From the NCBI RefSeq assembly GCF_003663945.1, contig NZ_RCCH01000007.1, positions 62,001 through 126,000 of the forward strand: DNA of 64,000 nt. The letters are read 5' to 3'. The stretch comes from Lacinutrix venerupis (lineage in GTDB: Bacteria; Bacteroidota; Bacteroidia; Flavobacteriales; Flavobacteriaceae). The position numbers and the translations under genes were made by a program. Below the pieces are notes generated by a model. The model saw only the letters and a program-made list of their open reading frames with translations, did not search any database and was not told the origin of the DNA. Shown here piece after piece: positions 25,109 to 49,467 of this stretch. Each line of letters opens with the position of its first letter. The first letter of the stretch is position 1.

Positions 25109-28100
25109 ATGAAAACAAAGTTTAGTGGAATTTTAACGCTATTGCTAGCGTTTGTTGTGCAACTCACGTTCGCACAGGGAAAAACAATTTCAGGTACCAT
25201 CTCCGATGGAGATAATTTACCGTTACCTGGAGTAAATGTTCTTGTTAAAGGTACTAGTAATGGTACTACAACAGATTTTGACGGTAAGTATTCAATTTCA
25301 GCAAACACAGGAGATGTTCTTGTATTCTCTTATGTTGGTAATACAGTAGAAAAAACTGTAGGAGCAAGTAACGACATAAGTTTTGTTATGAATGAAAATG
25401 CTTTAGAAGAAGTTGTAATTACTGTTTTAGGTGTTGAAAGAAAGGCGGATGAGCTTACATCTTCTACACAAATAGTAAAAGCTGAAACTTTAACACAAGC
25501 ATCTAACCCTAACGTAATACAGAGTTTAGCTGGTAAAGTTTCTGGTTTAAAAATTAATACAACTAACAACGGAGTTAATCAATCAACTCGTATTGTATTA
25601 AGAGGTAACAGATCTTTAACAGGAAGCAACGAGGCTTTAATAGTTATTGATGGAGCTATTTCATCTGCTAACACTTTAGCAAATTTAGCACCAGAAATTA
25701 TTGAGTCTACAAATGTAATTAAAGGAGCTGGTGGTAGTGCACTATATGGTTCTCAAGGAGCAAACGGTGTAATTATCGTTACTACAAAAAGAGGTACTGC
25801 TGATGAAAAAATTAACATTGCTGTTAATACATCAATCTCTTTTGAAGACATATCTTTTCTTCCACAACGTCAAACTAAGTACGGTCAAGGTTGGAACGGA
25901 GGTCATGTAACTTATGAAAATGGTGGATGGGGACCAGAATTTGATGGTTCTATTCAGCCTGTAGGTTTAGCTCAAGCAGATGGTTCATACATTATGGCAC
26001 CATACTCTCCTATTGAAGATAACATTGAGCAATTTTTCCAAACTGGTACTATTGCACAAACAGGTGTATCTATCTCTGGAGGTGATACAAATTCTTATGC
26101 ATTATTATCTGTTAACCGCCAAAACACAGAGTTTGTGGTGCAAGATGATAAATTAGGTAGAACAAACGTTTTATTTAAGGCTGGTAAGAAAATTGGAAAA
26201 TGGGATATCGGTGGAAACATTAACTATGTAAATTCAAAAACAGAAACTACAACTTCTAGTTTATTTACAGAGTTATTACAGACAGCTACAAACGTTCCTG
26301 TTGAGCAATTTGCTAATTCTGGAAACGAAGGACACTGGACATCTTATTACAGAAGTCCATATTGGATGAGAGATAATATTAGAAATACTACAGAGTCTGA
26401 CCGTTTTAACGGTATCATAAACTTAAAATATGAAATAAACGATAACATTAGTTTAAGCTCATTAACAAGTTTAAGAACTTTTAGCAGTAATTTTGTTGGG
26501 TATACTAATGAATACACTGATACTTCAGGTGTTGGTGGAGGAGATCACTCTACTGTTTCTCAATTCGCTACTAACAATCAAGAGTCTAAGAATTTTTATA
26601 ACGATATTTTCGTGAACTTTAACTACATGTTAACTGATGATTTATCATTCAAAGCAACATTAGGAAATAACGTTCAAGATAACTGGTCTTCTTTAACTTC
26701 TGTAAATGGTAGTAATGTAACAATTCCTAACTTTTACAACATTAGTAACATAACTGGTATACCAGGTGTTAGCAATAGTTCTTTTAGAAGTAGAAGTTAT
26801 GCATTATTTGGAAGTTTCGATTTTGGATTTAAAGATTATTTATTTTTAACTTTAACAGGAAGAAATGATTGGACTTCAAGATTAGCTGCAGATAGAAACT
26901 CATTCTTCTATCCAAGTGTAGGTGTATCTTTTGTACCAACAACTGCTTTTCCTAGCTTAAAAGAAGGTGGTGTTTTAAATTATGCTAAAATATCTGCTAA
27001 CTTAGCACGTGTAGGTAACGACAGAGTAGGAACTTACGAAACAAATAGTACACTTAATCAAGTTGCTGGATATCCTTATGGAGGTTTAAATTCATTTGCA
27101 ATAGATGCAACAGTTGCAGATCCTTTATTAGTAAACGAGTTTATTGACTCTAAAGAAGTTTCTTTAAACTTAGCATTTTTCAAAGGAGATAGAATTACTT
27201 TAGGAGCATCTTACTATATTACTAACAACAAAGACTTAGTAACTAATGTAAGTACTTCTACAGCTTCTGGTTTAACAAACTCAACAATTAATATTGGTGA
27301 AACAGAAACTAAAGGATATGAAATTGATTTAGGAATTACTCCTATTAGAACTGCAGATTTTAGATGGGATATTAACATGAGTTTATCTTCTGATGAAACA
27401 ATTGTTAAAAAAGTATCTGATAACACAGACGAAGTTTCATTAGGAAATGGTAATGCAGATGTTGGTATTTTTGCAACAGTAGGTGAGCCATTCCCATTAA
27501 TTAAAGGTACAGGATACCAAAGAGATCCTCAAGGAAGAGTATTAATTGACCCAAGTACAGGAAACCCATTAAAAACATCAGAATTTATTAATTTAGGTGT
27601 TGCTAACCCTGATTACATTGTTGGTCTTAATACAAGCTTAACATATAAAGGTTTTAGATTAGCTGGTGTTTTTGATTACAGAACTGGTCACCAATTCTGG
27701 GCTGGAACTAAAGATTGGTTATCATGGAGTGGACACTTAGTAGAGTCTGCAGAAAACGGTAGACGTGGATTTATTTTCCCTAACTCTGCTATAGAAACTT
27801 CTCCAGGTGTATATCAAGCTAACACAAATGTTGTAACAGGTGGTACAACTTATGCTAACTACTTAGATTATTTCTCTAATGAGTATAGAGATGTTTCTGA
27901 AAACTTTGTACTTGATGCTACAGCTTTTAAAGTAAGAGAACTTTCTTTAAGCTATGCTTTCAATAAAGATGTACTTAATGCTCTAGGGTTTAGTGATTTT
28001 AGAATCGGTATTAACGCAAGAAATCCATTTGTTGTTCTTCCAAAAGAAAACAGAGGTTATGCAGATCCAGAATTTTCAAACACTACAGGTAATGCACAAG

Positions 28101-42906: not shown

Positions 42907-45900
42907 ATGTATAAAATGAACAAAATAGTTTCCATATTAATGATTATTCTTTTTGCTAATACGTCCTTTTCTCAAGACAACAACTATTCCAAATTATGGA
43001 ATGATGTTGAAAATTTTGAAATTGAAGGCTTGCCTAAATCGGCATTAAAAGCTTTAGAAGTTATTGAAGACAAAGCGAAAGCCGAAAACAATGCGTCGCA
43101 GCTTGTTAAAATTATGTTGTTTAAAAGTAAATTCATGCTTACGCTTGAAGAAGATGCACAACTTAATATTATTGAAGCTTTTAAAGCTGAAATTAAAAAA
43201 AGCAATGCGCCAACTAAAAACGTTCTAGAGAATATTTTAGCAACATTATATTGGCAATATTTCCAGCAAAACCGTTGGAAATTTTATAACAGAACAAAAA
43301 CAAATGACAAAGTCGATTCTAACGATTTTAGAACTTGGGATTTAGAGACACTTTTTGCAGAAGTACACTTGCACTATAAAAACTCGCTTAATAACGGTTT
43401 AATTTTACAACAAACCAATTTAGATAATTTTGATGCCATAATACATAAGCAAAAAGATTCTAGAATTTACAGACCTACATTATTCGATTTTTTAGCGCAC
43501 AATGCACTTATTTTCTACAAACATCAAGAAACACATATTACAAAACCTGCTTATAAATTTATAATAGATAACCCACAATATCTATCTGCCTCAAGTGCGT
43601 TTGCTGCCTCAAAAATTGAGACTAAAGACACCAGCTCTTTAGAGTTTAATGCTTTAAAATTATACCAAGAACTTATAAAATTTCATTTAAAAGATAAAGA
43701 GCCTTATGCTTTAGCAACTGTTAATATAGAACGCTTAAATTTTGTAAAACAGTATGCTACATTTAATAATAAAGATGCTATTTATATAAGCGCGCTTAAA
43801 GCTGAAATTGAAAAACATAAAACACACGAGGTTTCTGCTTTATATAGTTTTCAATTAGCTTCAATTTATAACGCTCATGCTTTAGCTTATAATGCCAAAA
43901 CCAATCCAGATGCACGTTGGAAAATTAAGGAGGCAATTGCTATTTGTGATGCTGCTATTTCAAAATTTCCAAAAAGTAAAGGTGCAGAACAGTGTAATGT
44001 TTTAAAACAAAACATGCAAAATCCAAGTTTACAAATACTAACAGAAACAATACTTCCCATTCAAACCGAAGCAAAACTTTTAGTCACTTATAAAGCACTG
44101 GACGTCATTAACCTTAAAGCTCACAAACTAACAGAAAAACAGTATAACACTTTTTCTAAAATTTATAGAAACGATGAAAAAAAAGAGTTTATAGCTGGAC
44201 TAAACACTTATAAAACATGGGATGCTTCACTTAAAAATGAAAAAGATTACCTGGTACATTCTACAGAAATTTTAATGCCTAAGTTAGATAATGGTCGCTA
44301 CCTTATAACTGCTAACACTTCAGCATTAAAAGAAAATTTCTCAGCGCATACTTTAGTACAAGTTACTAATATTGCAATGTTAGAGTACGACGATTCTACA
44401 AAAAAACACTTGCAATTTATAGATAGAAATAATGGAATTCCTATTGCAAATGCAAAAGTTAAATTAGATTATACTTATGGAAATGAAAAAGTAGAAACTA
44501 TAAATAAAACTACAGATTCTAATGGAAAATTAAGTATTAGCAAATCGAAAAAAAATCGAAATAACATACAAGTAAAAATTTCGACCTCTAGTGATGTTGC
44601 CTATTACTCTAACCTATATATCAACAATTATTACAGAGATAGAAACAGAGACGAAAAACCAAGATATAACACCTTTGTATTTACAGACAGAAGTATTTAC
44701 AGACCAGAACAAACGGTTTATTTTAAAGGTATTTCTATAAAAACTCATGATAATAAATCTGAAGTTGTTACCAACCAAAACATAACAGCAAAGCTATTTA
44801 ATGTAAATGGTGAAACTGTAAAAGAGCTCGATTTAAAAACTAACGATTATGGTTCTGTTACTGGAGAATTTATTTTACCAGAAGGCGGATTAACTGGTAA
44901 TTTTTCTATTCGCTTACAAGGTAATAACTACAATAGTGGCTACACTAATATTTTGGTTGAAGAATACAAACGACCAAAATTCGAAACCAATTTTAAACCT
45001 ATTACCGAAACTATAAAAGTTAACGACAGTGTAAAAGTTACAGGCGAAGCTTTAGCTTTTGCTGGCTCAACTATTAGCAATGCAAAAGTAGTGTATCGTG
45101 TAAAACGAAATATACAATTTCCACGTTGGTATTATTGGAGAGGACCAAACAATACTGTAGATCAAGGTCAAGAAATTACACAAGGTGAAACCACGACTGA
45201 TGCTTCTGGAAATTATGAGATTACTTTTAAAGCCATTCCAGATGAAAGTGTAGACAAAAAAAGCTTACCAATTTTTAATTACGAGATTACCGCTGATGTT
45301 ACAGATATTAATGGCGAAACAAGAAACACAAAAACTATTGTAAATGTTGGCTACCATGCTTTAACCGCAACTATTTCAATTAATAATACTTTAGACAAAA
45401 CTAATAAAGACCATAAAGTAGAAATAGATACACGTAACTTAAATGGAGAATTTGTACCTGCAAAAGGAACATTAAAAATTTATAAACTAAAAGCTCCAGA
45501 ACATGTGCTACGTCCAAGACCTTGGAATGCTCCAGACTATCAAAATTTTACCGAAACCGAATTTAAAAAACATTTTCCTCACGAGGCTTATACAAACGAG
45601 CACCAAACTGAAAACTGGGAAAAAGGTGAGTTAGTTTACGAGAAAAAATTTGACACCGAAAAATCTGCAGCATTAGATTTAGGAAACATTAAAAAATGGC
45701 AATCTGGAGAATATATTGTCATTCTAGAAACCAAAGACAAATTTGGTCAAGATGTAAAAGACGAAGCTAAAACGAGAGTGTATAGCGATAAAGATGAAGT
45801 ATTAGCAGACAATCAATTATTTCGTGTTACAACAGATAAAGAGCAATATGCAACTAACGAAACTGTGGAACTAACATTTGCCACAGCCGCTAATGATATT

Positions 45901-48900
45901 TGGGTAACTGTGGATATTGAAAAAGACCACCACATTGTTAAAACTGAAATAATAAAACTTAATAGAAACAGTAAAACCATAAAAATTCCTGTAACCTCAA
46001 AAGATCTTGGTGGTTTTGTTGTACATTATAGTTTTGCGGCTTTTAATAGTTTTCACAGCAATTCGGTTAAAATAAATGTGCCTTATCCTAAAACCGATTT
46101 AGAAATTGAAACATTAACCTTTAGAGAGAAACTTCAACCAGGAACAGACGAGACTTGGAAATTTAAAATTAAAGGACCAAAAGGAGATAAAGTAGCTGCT
46201 GAACTTTTAGCAAGTATGTACGATTCGTCTTTAGACGAGTTTAAATCTCATAACTGGAGTTTTAATCCTATTTATCGTTATAACTACTACTCTAGCTTTA
46301 GACGTCATGCTTATAAAAGTTTTGGGAATACTAATTTTAATGTGCAGCGTAATACATCGTATAAAAACTATCCTCAAACACAACAATATGACCAGTTAAA
46401 TTGGTATGGTTTTAATTTGAATAATAAATGGCAATACCAACAGTATTTAAAATCACTTCAAAAAACTGTTTCTACTTACGATAAGGATTTAAAAGCAGGA
46501 ACAGTAACAGGTTTAGTTTTCGATGGTGGAAATCAACCAATTGCTGGAGTTAATGTTATTGTTAATGAAAAAAGAAAAGGAACAACAACAGACAGTAATG
46601 GTGCATTCACTATTAATGCAAAAACTGGCGACAAATTAACATTAAGCTACGTTGGCAACCAGAAAACAATAACAATAGGTAAAGAAAATACTTTTAAAAT
46701 CTATTTTAATGATAATTCTTTAGGTCAAGTGGTTGTTACTTTGGGATCAGAAAAAAAAGAAGCAGAACTAACATCATCAACAAAAAGGATAACTGCTGAT
46801 GAATTAACACAAGCATCTAATCCATCAGTCATGGAGCAGGAAGAAGATTTTGCTTATTATAGAGGGAATATGTACTCAAAGAAAGTAACTCTTCGTGGTA
46901 ATAGCTCTATTTCAGGAAATGAAAAAGCTTTAGTTGTAATTGATGGAGAAATTTCTACAAATGAAATTCTTCAGTCTTTAAACCCAAAAAATATTGTTTC
47001 AATAAATGTATTAAAAGGAGCTGAAGGTACCGCTTTGTATGGATCTAAAGCAGCAAATGGCGTTATAATTGTTACCACATCTAAAAATTCTAACGCAAAT
47101 TTCGATAACGTAAAAATCCGTAAAAATCTTCAAGAAACGGCATTTTTCTTTCCGCAATTACAAACAAACGAAAAAGGCGAAGTAAGTTTTAGCTTTACAA
47201 CACCAGAAGCATTAACTAAATGGAAATTACAATTATTAGCACACACTAAAACTTTAGAACACGCTACAACATCACTTACAGCAGTTACCCAAAAAGAATT
47301 AATGGTGTTACCAAACGTACCACGTTTTTTACGAGAAGGCGATCAAATTAGTATATCTACTAAAATATCTAATCTTACTAAAAAGGAATTAAATGGTGTT
47401 GCTGTGCTTCAGCTGTTCGATGCTTTAACTGGAAAATCTATAGATAACCAATTAGCGAATGCTAACAATAATAAAAGTTTTACTGTAGATGCTAAAGGTA
47501 GTACAAGCGTCACTTGGAATTTAAATGTATCAGATAATGTACAAGCTATTCAATATAAAATAATAGCAAAATCTGGTAACTATAGCGATGGTGAGCAAAA
47601 TGCATTACCTGTTTTAACAAACAGAATGTTAGTAACAGAGAGTTTACCAATGTGGATTAGAAGTAACCAAACCAAAACATTCACTTTAGATAAACTTAAA
47701 AACAATACCTCAACAACACTTAAAAACCATAAGTTAACGTTGGAAATGACAAGTAATCCTGCATGGTACGCAGTGCAAGCTCTACCTTATTTAATGGAAT
47801 ATCCTTACGAGTGTAACGAGCAAACGTTCTCTCGTTTTTATGCCAACGCTTTAGCAAGCCATATTGCAAACTCGAATCCTAGAATTCAAGAGGTCTTTAA
47901 CCAATGGAAAAATACAGATGCTTTATTAAGTAATTTAGAAAAGAATCAAGAATTGAAATCTATTTTAATTCAAGAAACACCTTGGTTACGTGATGCGCAA
48001 AGTGAAACCGAACAGAAAAAACGTATTGCGTTGTTATTCGATTTAAATAAAATGAATAACGAACTATCTAAAGCAAAAAACAAATTAAAACAAAACCAAA
48101 TGTCTTCTGGTGCTTGGTCTTGGTTTGGAGATTATCGCGAAAACCGTTACATCACACAGCATATTATTACCGGTTTTGGACATCTTGATAAATTAAATGT
48201 CACGTCGAGCGCAGGCGACACGTCTCAAATGATTGATAAAGCGCTAAATTATCTTGATTCAGAATTCGTGCAAGAATATAAAGACATTAGAAAATACGAT
48301 AAAGATGCCGATTTAAATATTGATAGATTAAGCTACACACAATTACATTACTTATACATGCGAAGCTTCTTTCCAAATAATAAACCTAGTGAAGAAGTTC
48401 GTGAGATTATGGAATATTACCATTCTCAAATTAAAAACTATTGGTTAAAAAGACCTTTATATGCAAAAGGTATGATGGCATTAATCACTTATAGAATGAA
48501 AGATGAAGTAACTTCTGCTAAAATTTTAAAATCTCTAAAAGAAACAAGTATTACTAGCGAAGAATTAGGCATGTATTGGAAAGCAAATACTAGTTCATGG
48601 CATTGGTATCAAGCACCTATTGAAACTCAAGCGTTAATGATTGAAGCATTCTCTGAAGCAGGAACTATTATTCAGAGCGAAGCTAAAAATCTAGAAACCA
48701 TAGACGAACTTAAAATTTGGTTACTTAAAAATAAGCAAACTAACCGTTGGAAAACTACTAAAGCCACAACCGAAGCGGTTTATGCTCTATTGCTTCAAGG
48801 TAGCGATTGGTTAAGTGTTACAGATATGGTAGAGGTTGTTATTGGGGGACAAAGTATTAATCCTTCAAAATTAGAAGCTGTAAAAATAGAAGCAGGAACC

Positions 48901-49467
48901 GGTTATTATAAAACGTCTTGGAATGGTGAAGAAATTAAACCAGAAATGGCCGAAGTAAAAATTACTAAAAAAGGAAATGGTATTGCTTGGGGAAGTATGT
49001 ACTGGCAATATTTCGAAGATTTAGACAAAATTACCTCAGCTGAAACACCTTTAAAACTGAAGAAAAAACTCTTTAAAAAAACGAATACAGATAAAGGTGA
49101 AGTAATAACAGATATTACAAAAGACACCAAACTTGAAGTTGGAGATTTAGTTCGTATTCGTATAGAATTACGTAGCGATCGTGCTATGGAATTTGTACAC
49201 ATGAAAGATATGCGAGCTGCAGGTTTAGAACCTGTAAATGTGTTATCTCAATACAAATACCAAGATGGTTTAGGCTATTATGAAGCTACAAAAGACGCAT
49301 CAACAAATTTCTTTTTCGATTATTTGCCAAAAGGCATTTATGTTTTTGAATACGATTTACGAGTAAGTAATGCTGGAAATATGAGTAATGGTATTACAAC
49401 CATACAAAGTATGTATGCTCCTGAATTTAGTAGCCATAGTGAAGGCAGTAGAATTACGGTTGAATAA
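42907..49467 (+). CDS. alpha-2-macroglobulin-like protein with inserted TonB-plug module
   Basis: A 2186-residue secreted protein (signal peptide to about residue 23, ...NTSFSQ; a second ATG at 42916 is an alternative start). An N-terminal helical region of about 400 residues precedes the macroglobulin domains; the MG2 domain is near 590-690 (VFTDRSIYRPEQTVYFKG). At 1197-1400 lies an insert: a carboxypeptidase-regulatory-like domain (AGVNVIVNEKRKGTTTDSNG) and a TonB-receptor plug (VTLRGNSSISG, ALVVIDG, ALYGSKAANGVIIVTT). The A2M core then begins (about 1408, ETAFFFPQLQTNEKGE) and carries the thioester motif CNEQ at 1636-1639, followed by the thiol-ester helical domain and a C-terminal beta domain. 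Such proteins trap proteases by covalent capture; no pbpC neighbour is present. Confidence 0.92.
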   Translation: MYKMNKIVSILMIILFANTSFSQDNNYSKLWNDVENFEIEGLPKSALKALEVIEDKAKAENNASQLVKIMLFKSKFMLTLEEDAQLNIIEAFKAEIKKSNAPTKNVLENILATLYWQYFQQNRWKFYNRTKTNDKVDSNDFRTWDLETLFAEVHLHYKNSLNNGLILQQTNLDNFDAIIHKQKDSRIYRPTLFDFLAHNALIFYKHQETHITKPAYKFIIDNPQYLSASSAFAASKIETKDTSSLEFNALKLYQELIKFHLKDKEPYALATVNIERLNFVKQYATFNNKDAIYISALKAEIEKHKTHEVSALYSFQLASIYNAHALAYNAKTNPDARWKIKEAIAICDAAISKFPKSKGAEQCNVLKQNMQNPSLQILTETILPIQTEAKLLVTYKALDVINLKAHKLTEKQYNTFSKIYRNDEKKEFIAGLNTYKTWDASLKNEKDYLVHSTEILMPKLDNGRYLITANTSALKENFSAHTLVQVTNIAMLEYDDSTKKHLQFIDRNNGIPIANAKVKLDYTYGNEKVETINKTTDSNGKLSISKSKKNRNNIQVKISTSSDVAYYSNLYINNYYRDRNRDEKPRYNTFVFTDRSIYRPEQTVYFKGISIKTHDNKSEVVTNQNITAKLFNVNGETVKELDLKTNDYGSVTGEFILPEGGLTGNFSIRLQGNNYNSGYTNILVEEYKRPKFETNFKPITETIKVNDSVKVTGEALAFAGSTISNAKVVYRVKRNIQFPRWYYWRGPNNTVDQGQEITQGETTTDASGNYEITFKAIPDESVDKKSLPIFNYEITADVTDINGETRNTKTIVNVGYHALTATISINNTLDKTNKDHKVEIDTRNLNGEFVPAKGTLKIYKLKAPEHVLRPRPWNAPDYQNFTETEFKKHFPHEAYTNEHQTENWEKGELVYEKKFDTEKSAALDLGNIKKWQSGEYIVILETKDKFGQDVKDEAKTRVYSDKDEVLADNQLFRVTTDKEQYATNETVELTFATAANDIWVTVDIEKDHHIVKTEIIKLNRNSKTIKIPVTSKDLGGFVVHYSFAAFNSFHSNSVKINVPYPKTDLEIETLTFREKLQPGTDETWKFKIKGPKGDKVAAELLASMYDSSLDEFKSHNWSFNPIYRYNYYSSFRRHAYKSFGNTNFNVQRNTSYKNYPQTQQYDQLNWYGFNLNNKWQYQQYLKSLQKTVSTYDKDLKAGTVTGLVFDGGNQPIAGVNVIVNEKRKGTTTDSNGAFTINAKTGDKLTLSYVGNQKTITIGKENTFKIYFNDNSLGQVVVTLGSEKKEAELTSSTKRITADELTQASNPSVMEQEEDFAYYRGNMYSKKVTLRGNSSISGNEKALVVIDGEISTNEILQSLNPKNIVSINVLKGAEGTALYGSKAANGVIIVTTSKNSNANFDNVKIRKNLQETAFFFPQLQTNEKGEVSFSFTTPEALTKWKLQLLAHTKTLEHATTSLTAVTQKELMVLPNVPRFLREGDQISISTKISNLTKKELNGVAVLQLFDALTGKSIDNQLANANNNKSFTVDAKGSTSVTWNLNVSDNVQAIQYKIIAKSGNYSDGEQNALPVLTNRMLVTESLPMWIRSNQTKTFTLDKLKNNTSTTLKNHKLTLEMTSNPAWYAVQALPYLMEYPYECNEQTFSRFYANALASHIANSNPRIQEVFNQWKNTDALLSNLEKNQELKSILIQETPWLRDAQSETEQKKRIALLFDLNKMNNELSKAKNKLKQNQMSSGAWSWFGDYRENRYITQHIITGFGHLDKLNVTSSAGDTSQMIDKALNYLDSEFVQEYKDIRKYDKDADLNIDRLSYTQLHYLYMRSFFPNNKPSEEVREIMEYYHSQIKNYWLKRPLYAKGMMALITYRMKDEVTSAKILKSLKETSITSEELGMYWKANTSSWHWYQAPIETQALMIEAFSEAGTIIQSEAKNLETIDELKIWLLKNKQTNRWKTTKATTEAVYALLLQGSDWLSVTDMVEVVIGGQSINPSKLEAVKIEAGTGYYKTSWNGEEIKPEMAEVKITKKGNGIAWGSMYWQYFEDLDKITSAETPLKLKKKLFKKTNTDKGEVITDITKDTKLEVGDLVRIRIELRSDRAMEFVHMKDMRAAGLEPVNVLSQYKYQDGLGYYEATKDASTNFFFDYLPKGIYVFEYDLRVSNAGNMSNGITTIQSMYAPEFSSHSEGSRITVE

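Follow-up and report, generated by a model that had tools for sequence, protein, structure and literature searches.

What the alpha-2-macroglobulins (A2Ms) of bacteria trap, and why, is largely open, and one gene of Lacinutrix venerupis (Bacteroidota; Flavobacteriaceae) puts the question in a specific form: why should the bait of such a trap carry the N-terminal modules of a SusC transporter? The gene lies in the window analyzed here, a stretch of 64,000 nucleotides (contig NZ_RCCH01000007.1 of assembly GCF_003663945.1, positions 62,001 to 126,000, forward strand), and had been singled out in a sequence-only reading of that DNA. Lines for this architecture may well already be present in protein databases, the architecture names of which were not searched. 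What is new is that the two modules of the bait, a carboxypeptidase-regulatory-like domain (CPD) and a TonB-receptor plug, come and go among relatives, and that SusC-like TonB boxes and plug scraps are found in baits with neither module. The sequence-only reading knew of no described function, and we likewise found no paper in the open-licence PubMed Central literature that joins macroglobulin with TonB box, bait or plug.

By its domain order and its CxEQ motif, the protein is a member of the alpha-2-macroglobulin family. The Pfam matches, all above the curated cut-offs, succeed each other as MG2, A2M_BRD, CarbopepD_reg_2, Plug, A2M and bMG10 within a single reading frame (Table 1). The plug scores 32.5 bits against a cut-off of 23.9; as the sequence-only reading had noticed, it has no beta-barrel and is followed by the A2M core; it is also shortened. 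The same reading had put the plug and the regulatory-like domain in frame at the bait position of a macroglobulin, and the open reading frame, the Pfam matches and an alignment in which a profile of 30 relatives lacking the insert was set against 43 class-a A2Ms all agree with this placement (classes a and b are divided at an arbitrary profile E-value of 1e-40). In the alignment, the variable gap falls between the strand 'SMYDASLD' and the A2M core, and the class-a A2Ms align lengthwise to YfhM of E. coli, in which bait residues 923-942 are disordered in the crystal, as described in PMC4498604. By alignment, the insert gap overlies the YfhM bait position. The segment after the insert, IRKNLQETAFFFP, holds the sole gap residue conserved in at least 90% of 122 gaps, and we read it as probably sitting at the place of the alpha'NT segment, which in the A2Ms of animals runs through the central channel (PMC9352918). 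A structure model of 801 amino acids, for which the Salmonella A2M 4u48 ranked first in Foldseek (E 5.5e-16; TM 0.14, domain by domain), is of low confidence (mean pLDDT 61) and therefore does not reveal the placement of the insert within the complete protein.

When the insert was searched alone, SusC and RagA emerged as its best solved relatives by sequence (E 3.8e-18 and 3.8e-16), with matches that cover the N-terminal extension and the plug together. The insert keeps the order of these transporters, namely CPD (their N-terminal extension), TonB-box position and plug; unlike them, it has no beta-barrel, its plug is shortened, and it is set between macroglobulin domains. The sequence-only description of a plug with a regulatory-like domain was correct for both domains, but it missed the TonB-box position and the optional character of the modules among relatives. 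In a model of the insert alone, built with 29 sequences (mean pLDDT of the whole model 68.5), the CPD is modelled confidently (pLDDT 89-96 by blocks), fair confidence in the plug is restricted to its C-terminal part (76-85), and residues 1273-1336, including the TonB-box position, are below 50. Because the CPD and the later part of the plug are modelled better than the stretch between them, the insert reads as two small folded beads with a loose linker. In a Foldseek search with this model, the SusC N-terminal extension 9hfj ranks first (E 1.7e-6), followed by weaker plug matches to RagA 6sml and SusC 8aa4 (E 0.005-0.006). The model also matched chain E of the BAM complex of Flavobacterium johnsoniae (9n2d), and the N-terminal domain of BamP is described as binding the POTRA domains of BamA (PMC12611786); docking to BAM was considered and rejected, chain E not being established as BamP.

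Given this anatomy, we tentatively favor the explanation that the bait imitates the periplasmic face of SusC transporters and is cut by proteases that attack SusC. Under this model, the bait would be assembled from the periplasm-facing start of SusC, that is, CPD, TonB box and plug, and the cuttable part would be the loose linker with the TonB-box position, held between two folded beads. Proteases that reach the periplasm, where they would attack SusC at its exposed TonB box or expelled plug, would also cut the look-alike bait, whereupon the cut bait end would retract, the trap would close, and the thioester would couple to the protease. A2Ms are sprung by bait cleavage (PMC4498604); SusC presents its N-terminal extension and TonB box to the periplasm, its plug seems to be displaced to that side when the transporter is closed, and in one crystal the plug had been lost to proteolytic cleavage (PMC7782687). 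From the presence of like pieces in the bait we infer that it is cut by whatever cuts those pieces in SusC. The observations on which the proposal draws are the anatomy and position described above, the recurrence and turnover of the modules, a fast-changing bait in which the box is better retained than the rest, and boxes in some of the module-free baits. Among the ideas of the sequence-only reading, a bait released by a protease agrees best with the findings, and the part to be cut would be the linker, which is disordered in the model. A docking domain for surface receptor partners, also suggested there, is unsupported: judged by eye, the signal peptide looks plain and has no lipobox, so that the protein is probably soluble in the periplasm. 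In a crude scan of the class-b family, 112 of 118 proteins were likewise without a lipobox, five had one, and one was not judged. The CxEQ motif is present in 117 of 121 class-b relatives, and therefore the chemistry of the trap is conserved while the bait varies. Four class-b A2Ms (L167, L168, L170 and L174) have no CxEQ in the scanned stretch, and L174, which carries CPD and plug, has SAEQ instead.

The architecture recurs in flavobacteria, as had been surmised. Close relatives, the best 80 of at least 561 (79 loci) and hence a set biased to close kin, are headed by Flavobacteriaceae such as Lacinutrix, Olleya and Winogradskyella, and their 80 A2M frames comprise 28 with CPD and plug, 21 with CPD, three with plug and 28 with neither. 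These states come from in-house profiles that differ slightly from Pfam (35 Pfam plugs versus 37 by states in 122 gaps). A fairer count comes from 148 Bacteroidota genomes drawn evenly from the phylum; an A2M is present in 66 of them, and 86 places were retrieved besides that of the window. The 41 class-b genes in this phylum sample include eight with CPD only, three with plug only, two with both and 28 with neither, and the 45 class-a genes include one with a plug. One of the 'plug only' genes, L180, has CPD and plug by Pfam, so that the totals are plugs in 6/86 and CPDs in 11/86. The plug stands ahead of the A2M core in two distant A2Ms, L180 and L225, the latter a protein of 1512 amino acids that matches TED_complement and A2M_recep, lacks a match to the bait domain, and has a SusC-like plug match covering profile positions 5-107 of 107. 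Across the 122 gaps (window included), Pfam finds CPD in 60, Plug in 35, CooC_C in 28 and a teneurin TTR-like domain in 10; every remaining domain occurs in at most four, among them the edge of the bait domain itself (four). Apart from this edge, we read the domains that come after CPD and Plug as mostly CPD-like folds, whose matches overlap. Since CPD and plug recur together in 28 of the 80 frames, and distant A2Ms have plugs as well, an assembly join or chimera, named earlier as what could undo the observation, is ruled out, and so is a one-off insertion. The CPD also recurs alone: the distant A2Ms L156, L160, L161 and L162 have a CPD-like domain in the bait without a TonB box. A Marivirga A2M with CPD and plug (L076, 774-7564) is split, its frames having 986 and 1391 codons, and two loci (L030, 9920-22835, and L040, from 9965) have tandem A2M pairs, the first member with CNEQ and without CPD or plug, the second with both modules.

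The CPD and the plug are optional modules, gained and lost. On a core tree of 119 rows, built by a quick method with 41 of 116 inner branches left open and with long branches, the minimum number of changes is 28 for the four-state insert, 19 for the CPD and 18 for the plug; the state and the box of the window were entered there by hand (present; 11.7 bits, against a threshold of 14). The starred clade of six rows to which the window belongs contains all four states: both modules in the window, L004 and L020, CPD in L003, plug in L037 and neither in L030. The bait also changes fast. In 25 hand-picked pairs, some sharing members, dN of the gap was higher than that of the 300 residues downstream in all 25 and of the 300 preceding residues in 24. 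Within this variable stretch the box is better retained. When each box of at least 14 bits was set against its closest relative in that state, whether that relative scored or not, the identity of the box core versus the rest of the gap was 0.84 versus 0.50 for CPD-only baits, 0.83 versus 0.53 for baits with both modules and 0.66 versus 0.46 for those with neither, and the single plug-only pair gave 0.80 versus 0.35. The box core was better kept than the other gap residues in 18/19 CPD-only, 19/19 both, 12/16 neither and 1/1 plug-only pairs.

The matrix used for these boxes was built, A2Ms excluded, from the TonB boxes of 23 receptors in this genome; the thresholds applied in the analysis (16, 14 and 10 bits) were set after the motif was seen, and the gap was trimmed to 120 amino acids where the bait-domain profile missed (17/45 class-a and 2/121 class-b rows). 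At 16 bits or more, boxes are found in 61 of 121 class-b baits, that is, in 27/30 with both modules, 19/29 with CPD, 2/6 with plug and 13/56 with neither. The L180 box (22.5 bits) went uncounted owing to the gap boundary and would raise the total to 62/121. Among module-free baits, 11 of 28 from close kin and two of 28 from the phylum sample reach this score; the 13 boxes lie within 6,536 residues, and 22 of the 56 baits stand out at p <=0.005 in a test with 200 shuffles per bait. At the same threshold, there were no boxes outside the bait in the same class-b proteins (0/121), none in a wider scan of whole class-a proteins (0/45; the best, 15.7 bits, in the plug-bearing L225), and none in nearby open reading frames of at least 150 amino acids (six frames, 79 loci; 1222 frames, 411,223 residues). 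The TonB box of Bacteroides thetaiotaomicron SusC was located by mutation at VDEVVV (PMC7782687), and the A2M bait boxes match the corresponding stretch; in inserts with CPD and plug (31 and 29 sequences), the near-invariant positions include L, E and V of this box. A plug motif, ALxGRVAGVxV, reaches at least 10 bits in 13 of the 56 module-free baits, compared with 5/56 in the much longer rest of these proteins. It precedes the box, the reverse of the order in SusC, in seven of the 13 (L065, L068, L046, L055, L048, L072 and L079), follows it in two, and stands in four baits with no clear box. Because the motif often stands before the box, it is short sequences, rather than the plug fold, that seem to be retained.

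Several observations weigh against imitation. The TonB box of the window's own A2M is degenerate, at 11.7 bits versus 16-32 for the 23 receptor boxes, a score that 7 of 2000 shuffles reach. In the phylum sample only 7/41 class-b baits, and 2/28 module-free ones, have a box of at least 16 bits, and the box is therefore mainly a trait of the window's kin. Overall, 43 of the 56 baits with neither module do not reach 16 bits, and 34 of the 56 are unexceptional relative to shuffles; 10 of the 29 CPD-only baits also fall short of 16 bits, with L156, L160, L161 and L162 far below. The plug motif, at the same threshold, is also present in the rest of 6/44 class-a proteins. The dN of the gap exceeded dS in none of the 25 pairs, and hence positive selection is not demonstrated. 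Finally, a protease with specificity for SusC plugs is not known to us.

The kinship of the inserts with SusC genes brings in the strongest competing explanation. The genome yields 30 plug hits. One is in the window's A2M; each of the other 29 is close to an N-terminus and is followed by 456 or more amino acids (barrels not profile-tested). Among these plug-bearing frames, the N-terminus closest to the insert is that of SusC L094, identical in 48% of 201 positions. This receptor of 1042 codons lies about 21 kb before the A2M insert, with its plug at about 25448-25771 (+) of the window (G000:C7:87448-87771), and in four related genomes SusC rows from its tree group have an A2M at a distance of 20-32 kb. 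The box of L081 agrees with SusC gene DNA in 31 of 33 bases, and across 587 bases the insert of L020 shares 70% DNA identity with a SusC from the same genome. In a tree of 30 A2M and 30 receptor rows, the inserts adjoin two SusC groups; an AU test of a single A2M-insert clade, made after removal of four A2M-row copies, L230 (an A2M) and five long or fragmentary receptor rows, gave p 0.08, so that a single SusC origin is not rejected. The end branches of the inserts measure 0.29 (window), 0.21 (L020) and 0.59 (L004), versus 0.07-0.11 for SusC L094, L234 and L236 of the same genomes. Small, probably exported proteins (L262, L263, L265, L266 and L267; frames of 271-287 amino acids, in four related genomes) have a CPD followed by LALEEVVV or LALEEIVV, which resemble a TonB box; L263 has a weak match to solved SusC N-terminal extensions and no sequence match to the BAM entry 9n2d.

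Such likeness would also be expected if the bait were simply an insertion-tolerant loop into which recombination drops functionless fragments of numerous SusC genes. This explanation, possible but less probable in our judgment, accommodates the 30 plug hits, the DNA likeness of L081 and L020, the fast change of the bait with its frequent changes of state, and the patchy distribution of the box. It does not readily account for the recurring domains of the 122 gaps, which are limited to the edge of the bait domain and to parts of the SusC start, namely CPD, CPD-like folds and plug, for a box that outlasts the rest of the bait, or for the occurrence of a plug ahead of the core in distantly related A2Ms.

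We consider it unlikely that the TonB box, perhaps together with the CPD, is a working address tag through which the bait is bound by TonB or by some other machine of the envelope, with the trap parked at the inner mouth of SusC transporters or the bait pulled as an alternative trigger. The match to a box proven by mutation in SusC (PMC7782687), the near-invariance of L, E and V, the position of the box in a stretch modelled as disordered, and a plain signal peptide that would place the protein on the TonB side are all compatible with docking. However, many baits have a weak box or none, that of the window is degenerate, and neither plug scraps beyond the box nor a reversed order of the blocks would be needed for TonB binding. 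Less likely again is the specific form in which these A2Ms are wired to the TonB motor, such that TonB holds or pulls the trap at the SusC inner mouth through the bait box; if it were true, proteases or protein toxins coming in through these transporters would meet the trap first, and TonB force could be a second trigger beside cleavage. Self-camouflage, in which the bait uses sequences that selection has taught the cell's own periplasmic proteases to spare, so that resident proteases would leave the trap unsprung while it stays open to foreign ones, appears improbable: it predicts the same anatomy and distribution as imitation, from which nothing in the analysis separates it, and a SusC plug was lost to proteolysis in one preparation (PMC7782687), so that plugs are not protease-proof.

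Whether by imitation or by docking, the fact that these baits repeatedly draw on a single family of transporters suggests the inner face of SusC as an attacked site or a station of the trap. Close relatives also exchange parts of the bait in nature, much as is done in the engineering of human A2M, in which a tabula rasa bait showed the bait to be replaceable (PMC9352918); the engineered baits are man-made, whereas the natural baits described here draw on a single transporter family.

Table 1. Features of the A2M gene and its bait insert (positions in the window; residues of the encoded protein).
Feature	Position	Strand	Basis
A2M gene, 2186 codons	42907..49467	+	single uninterrupted open reading frame; Pfam
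Signal peptide, SPI-like, without lipobox	42907..42972	+	sequence, judged by eye
MG2 domain, residues 589-684	44671..44958	+	Pfam PF01835
Bait-region domain A2M_BRD, residues 973-1087	45823..46167	+	Pfam PF07703
Bait gap between bait-domain and A2M core profiles, residues 1129-1401; contains the entire insert	46291..47109	+	profile boundaries; position by alignment
YDQLNWYGF, family-conserved, directly upstream of the variable bait	46387..46413	+	comparison of relatives
CPD, SusC N-terminal-extension type, residues 1200-1277; Pfam match covers the terminal box	46504..46737	+	Pfam PF13715; fold match
TonB-box position LGQVVV, residues 1272-1277, degenerate L-x-E-V-V-V	46720..46737	+	alignment; 11.7 bits
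Linker, pLDDT <50, residues 1273-1336; candidate site of bait cleavage	46723..46914	+	structure model
TonB-receptor plug, residues 1287-1386, no barrel after it	46765..47064	+	Pfam PF07715
Folded part of the plug (VIDG ... LYGSKAANGVIIVTT), residues 1339-1394	46921..47088	+	pLDDT 76-85 by blocks
Segment after the insert, IRKNLQETAFFFP	47116..47154	+	alignment of gaps
A2M core domain, residues 1411-1496	47137..47394	+	Pfam PF00207
Thioester motif CNEQ, residues 1636-1639	47812..47823	+	sequence
C-terminal macroglobulin domain bMG10, residues 2049-2173	49051..49425	+	Pfam

Compared with the A2Ms of E. coli (YfhM) and Salmonella, the window's A2M has the macroglobulin domains, bait domain, A2M core, CxEQ motif and C-terminal macroglobulin domain in common. 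Those proteins are of the lipoprotein type linked to PBP1C, whereas the window's A2M has no lipobox, none of the nine neighboring open reading frames scanned encodes a penicillin-binding protein, PBP1C included, and its bait, unlike theirs, carries SusC modules. The genome holds one further A2M, of class a, on contig 3 (L257, 5768-15151; 1886 amino acids). This second A2M resembles the YfhM type in its neighbor, a PBP1C-type penicillin-binding protein with BiPBP_C from which it is separated by one open reading frame of 287 codons, and the proximity of an A2M to a PBP1C gene is the arrangement described for E. coli (PMC4498604).

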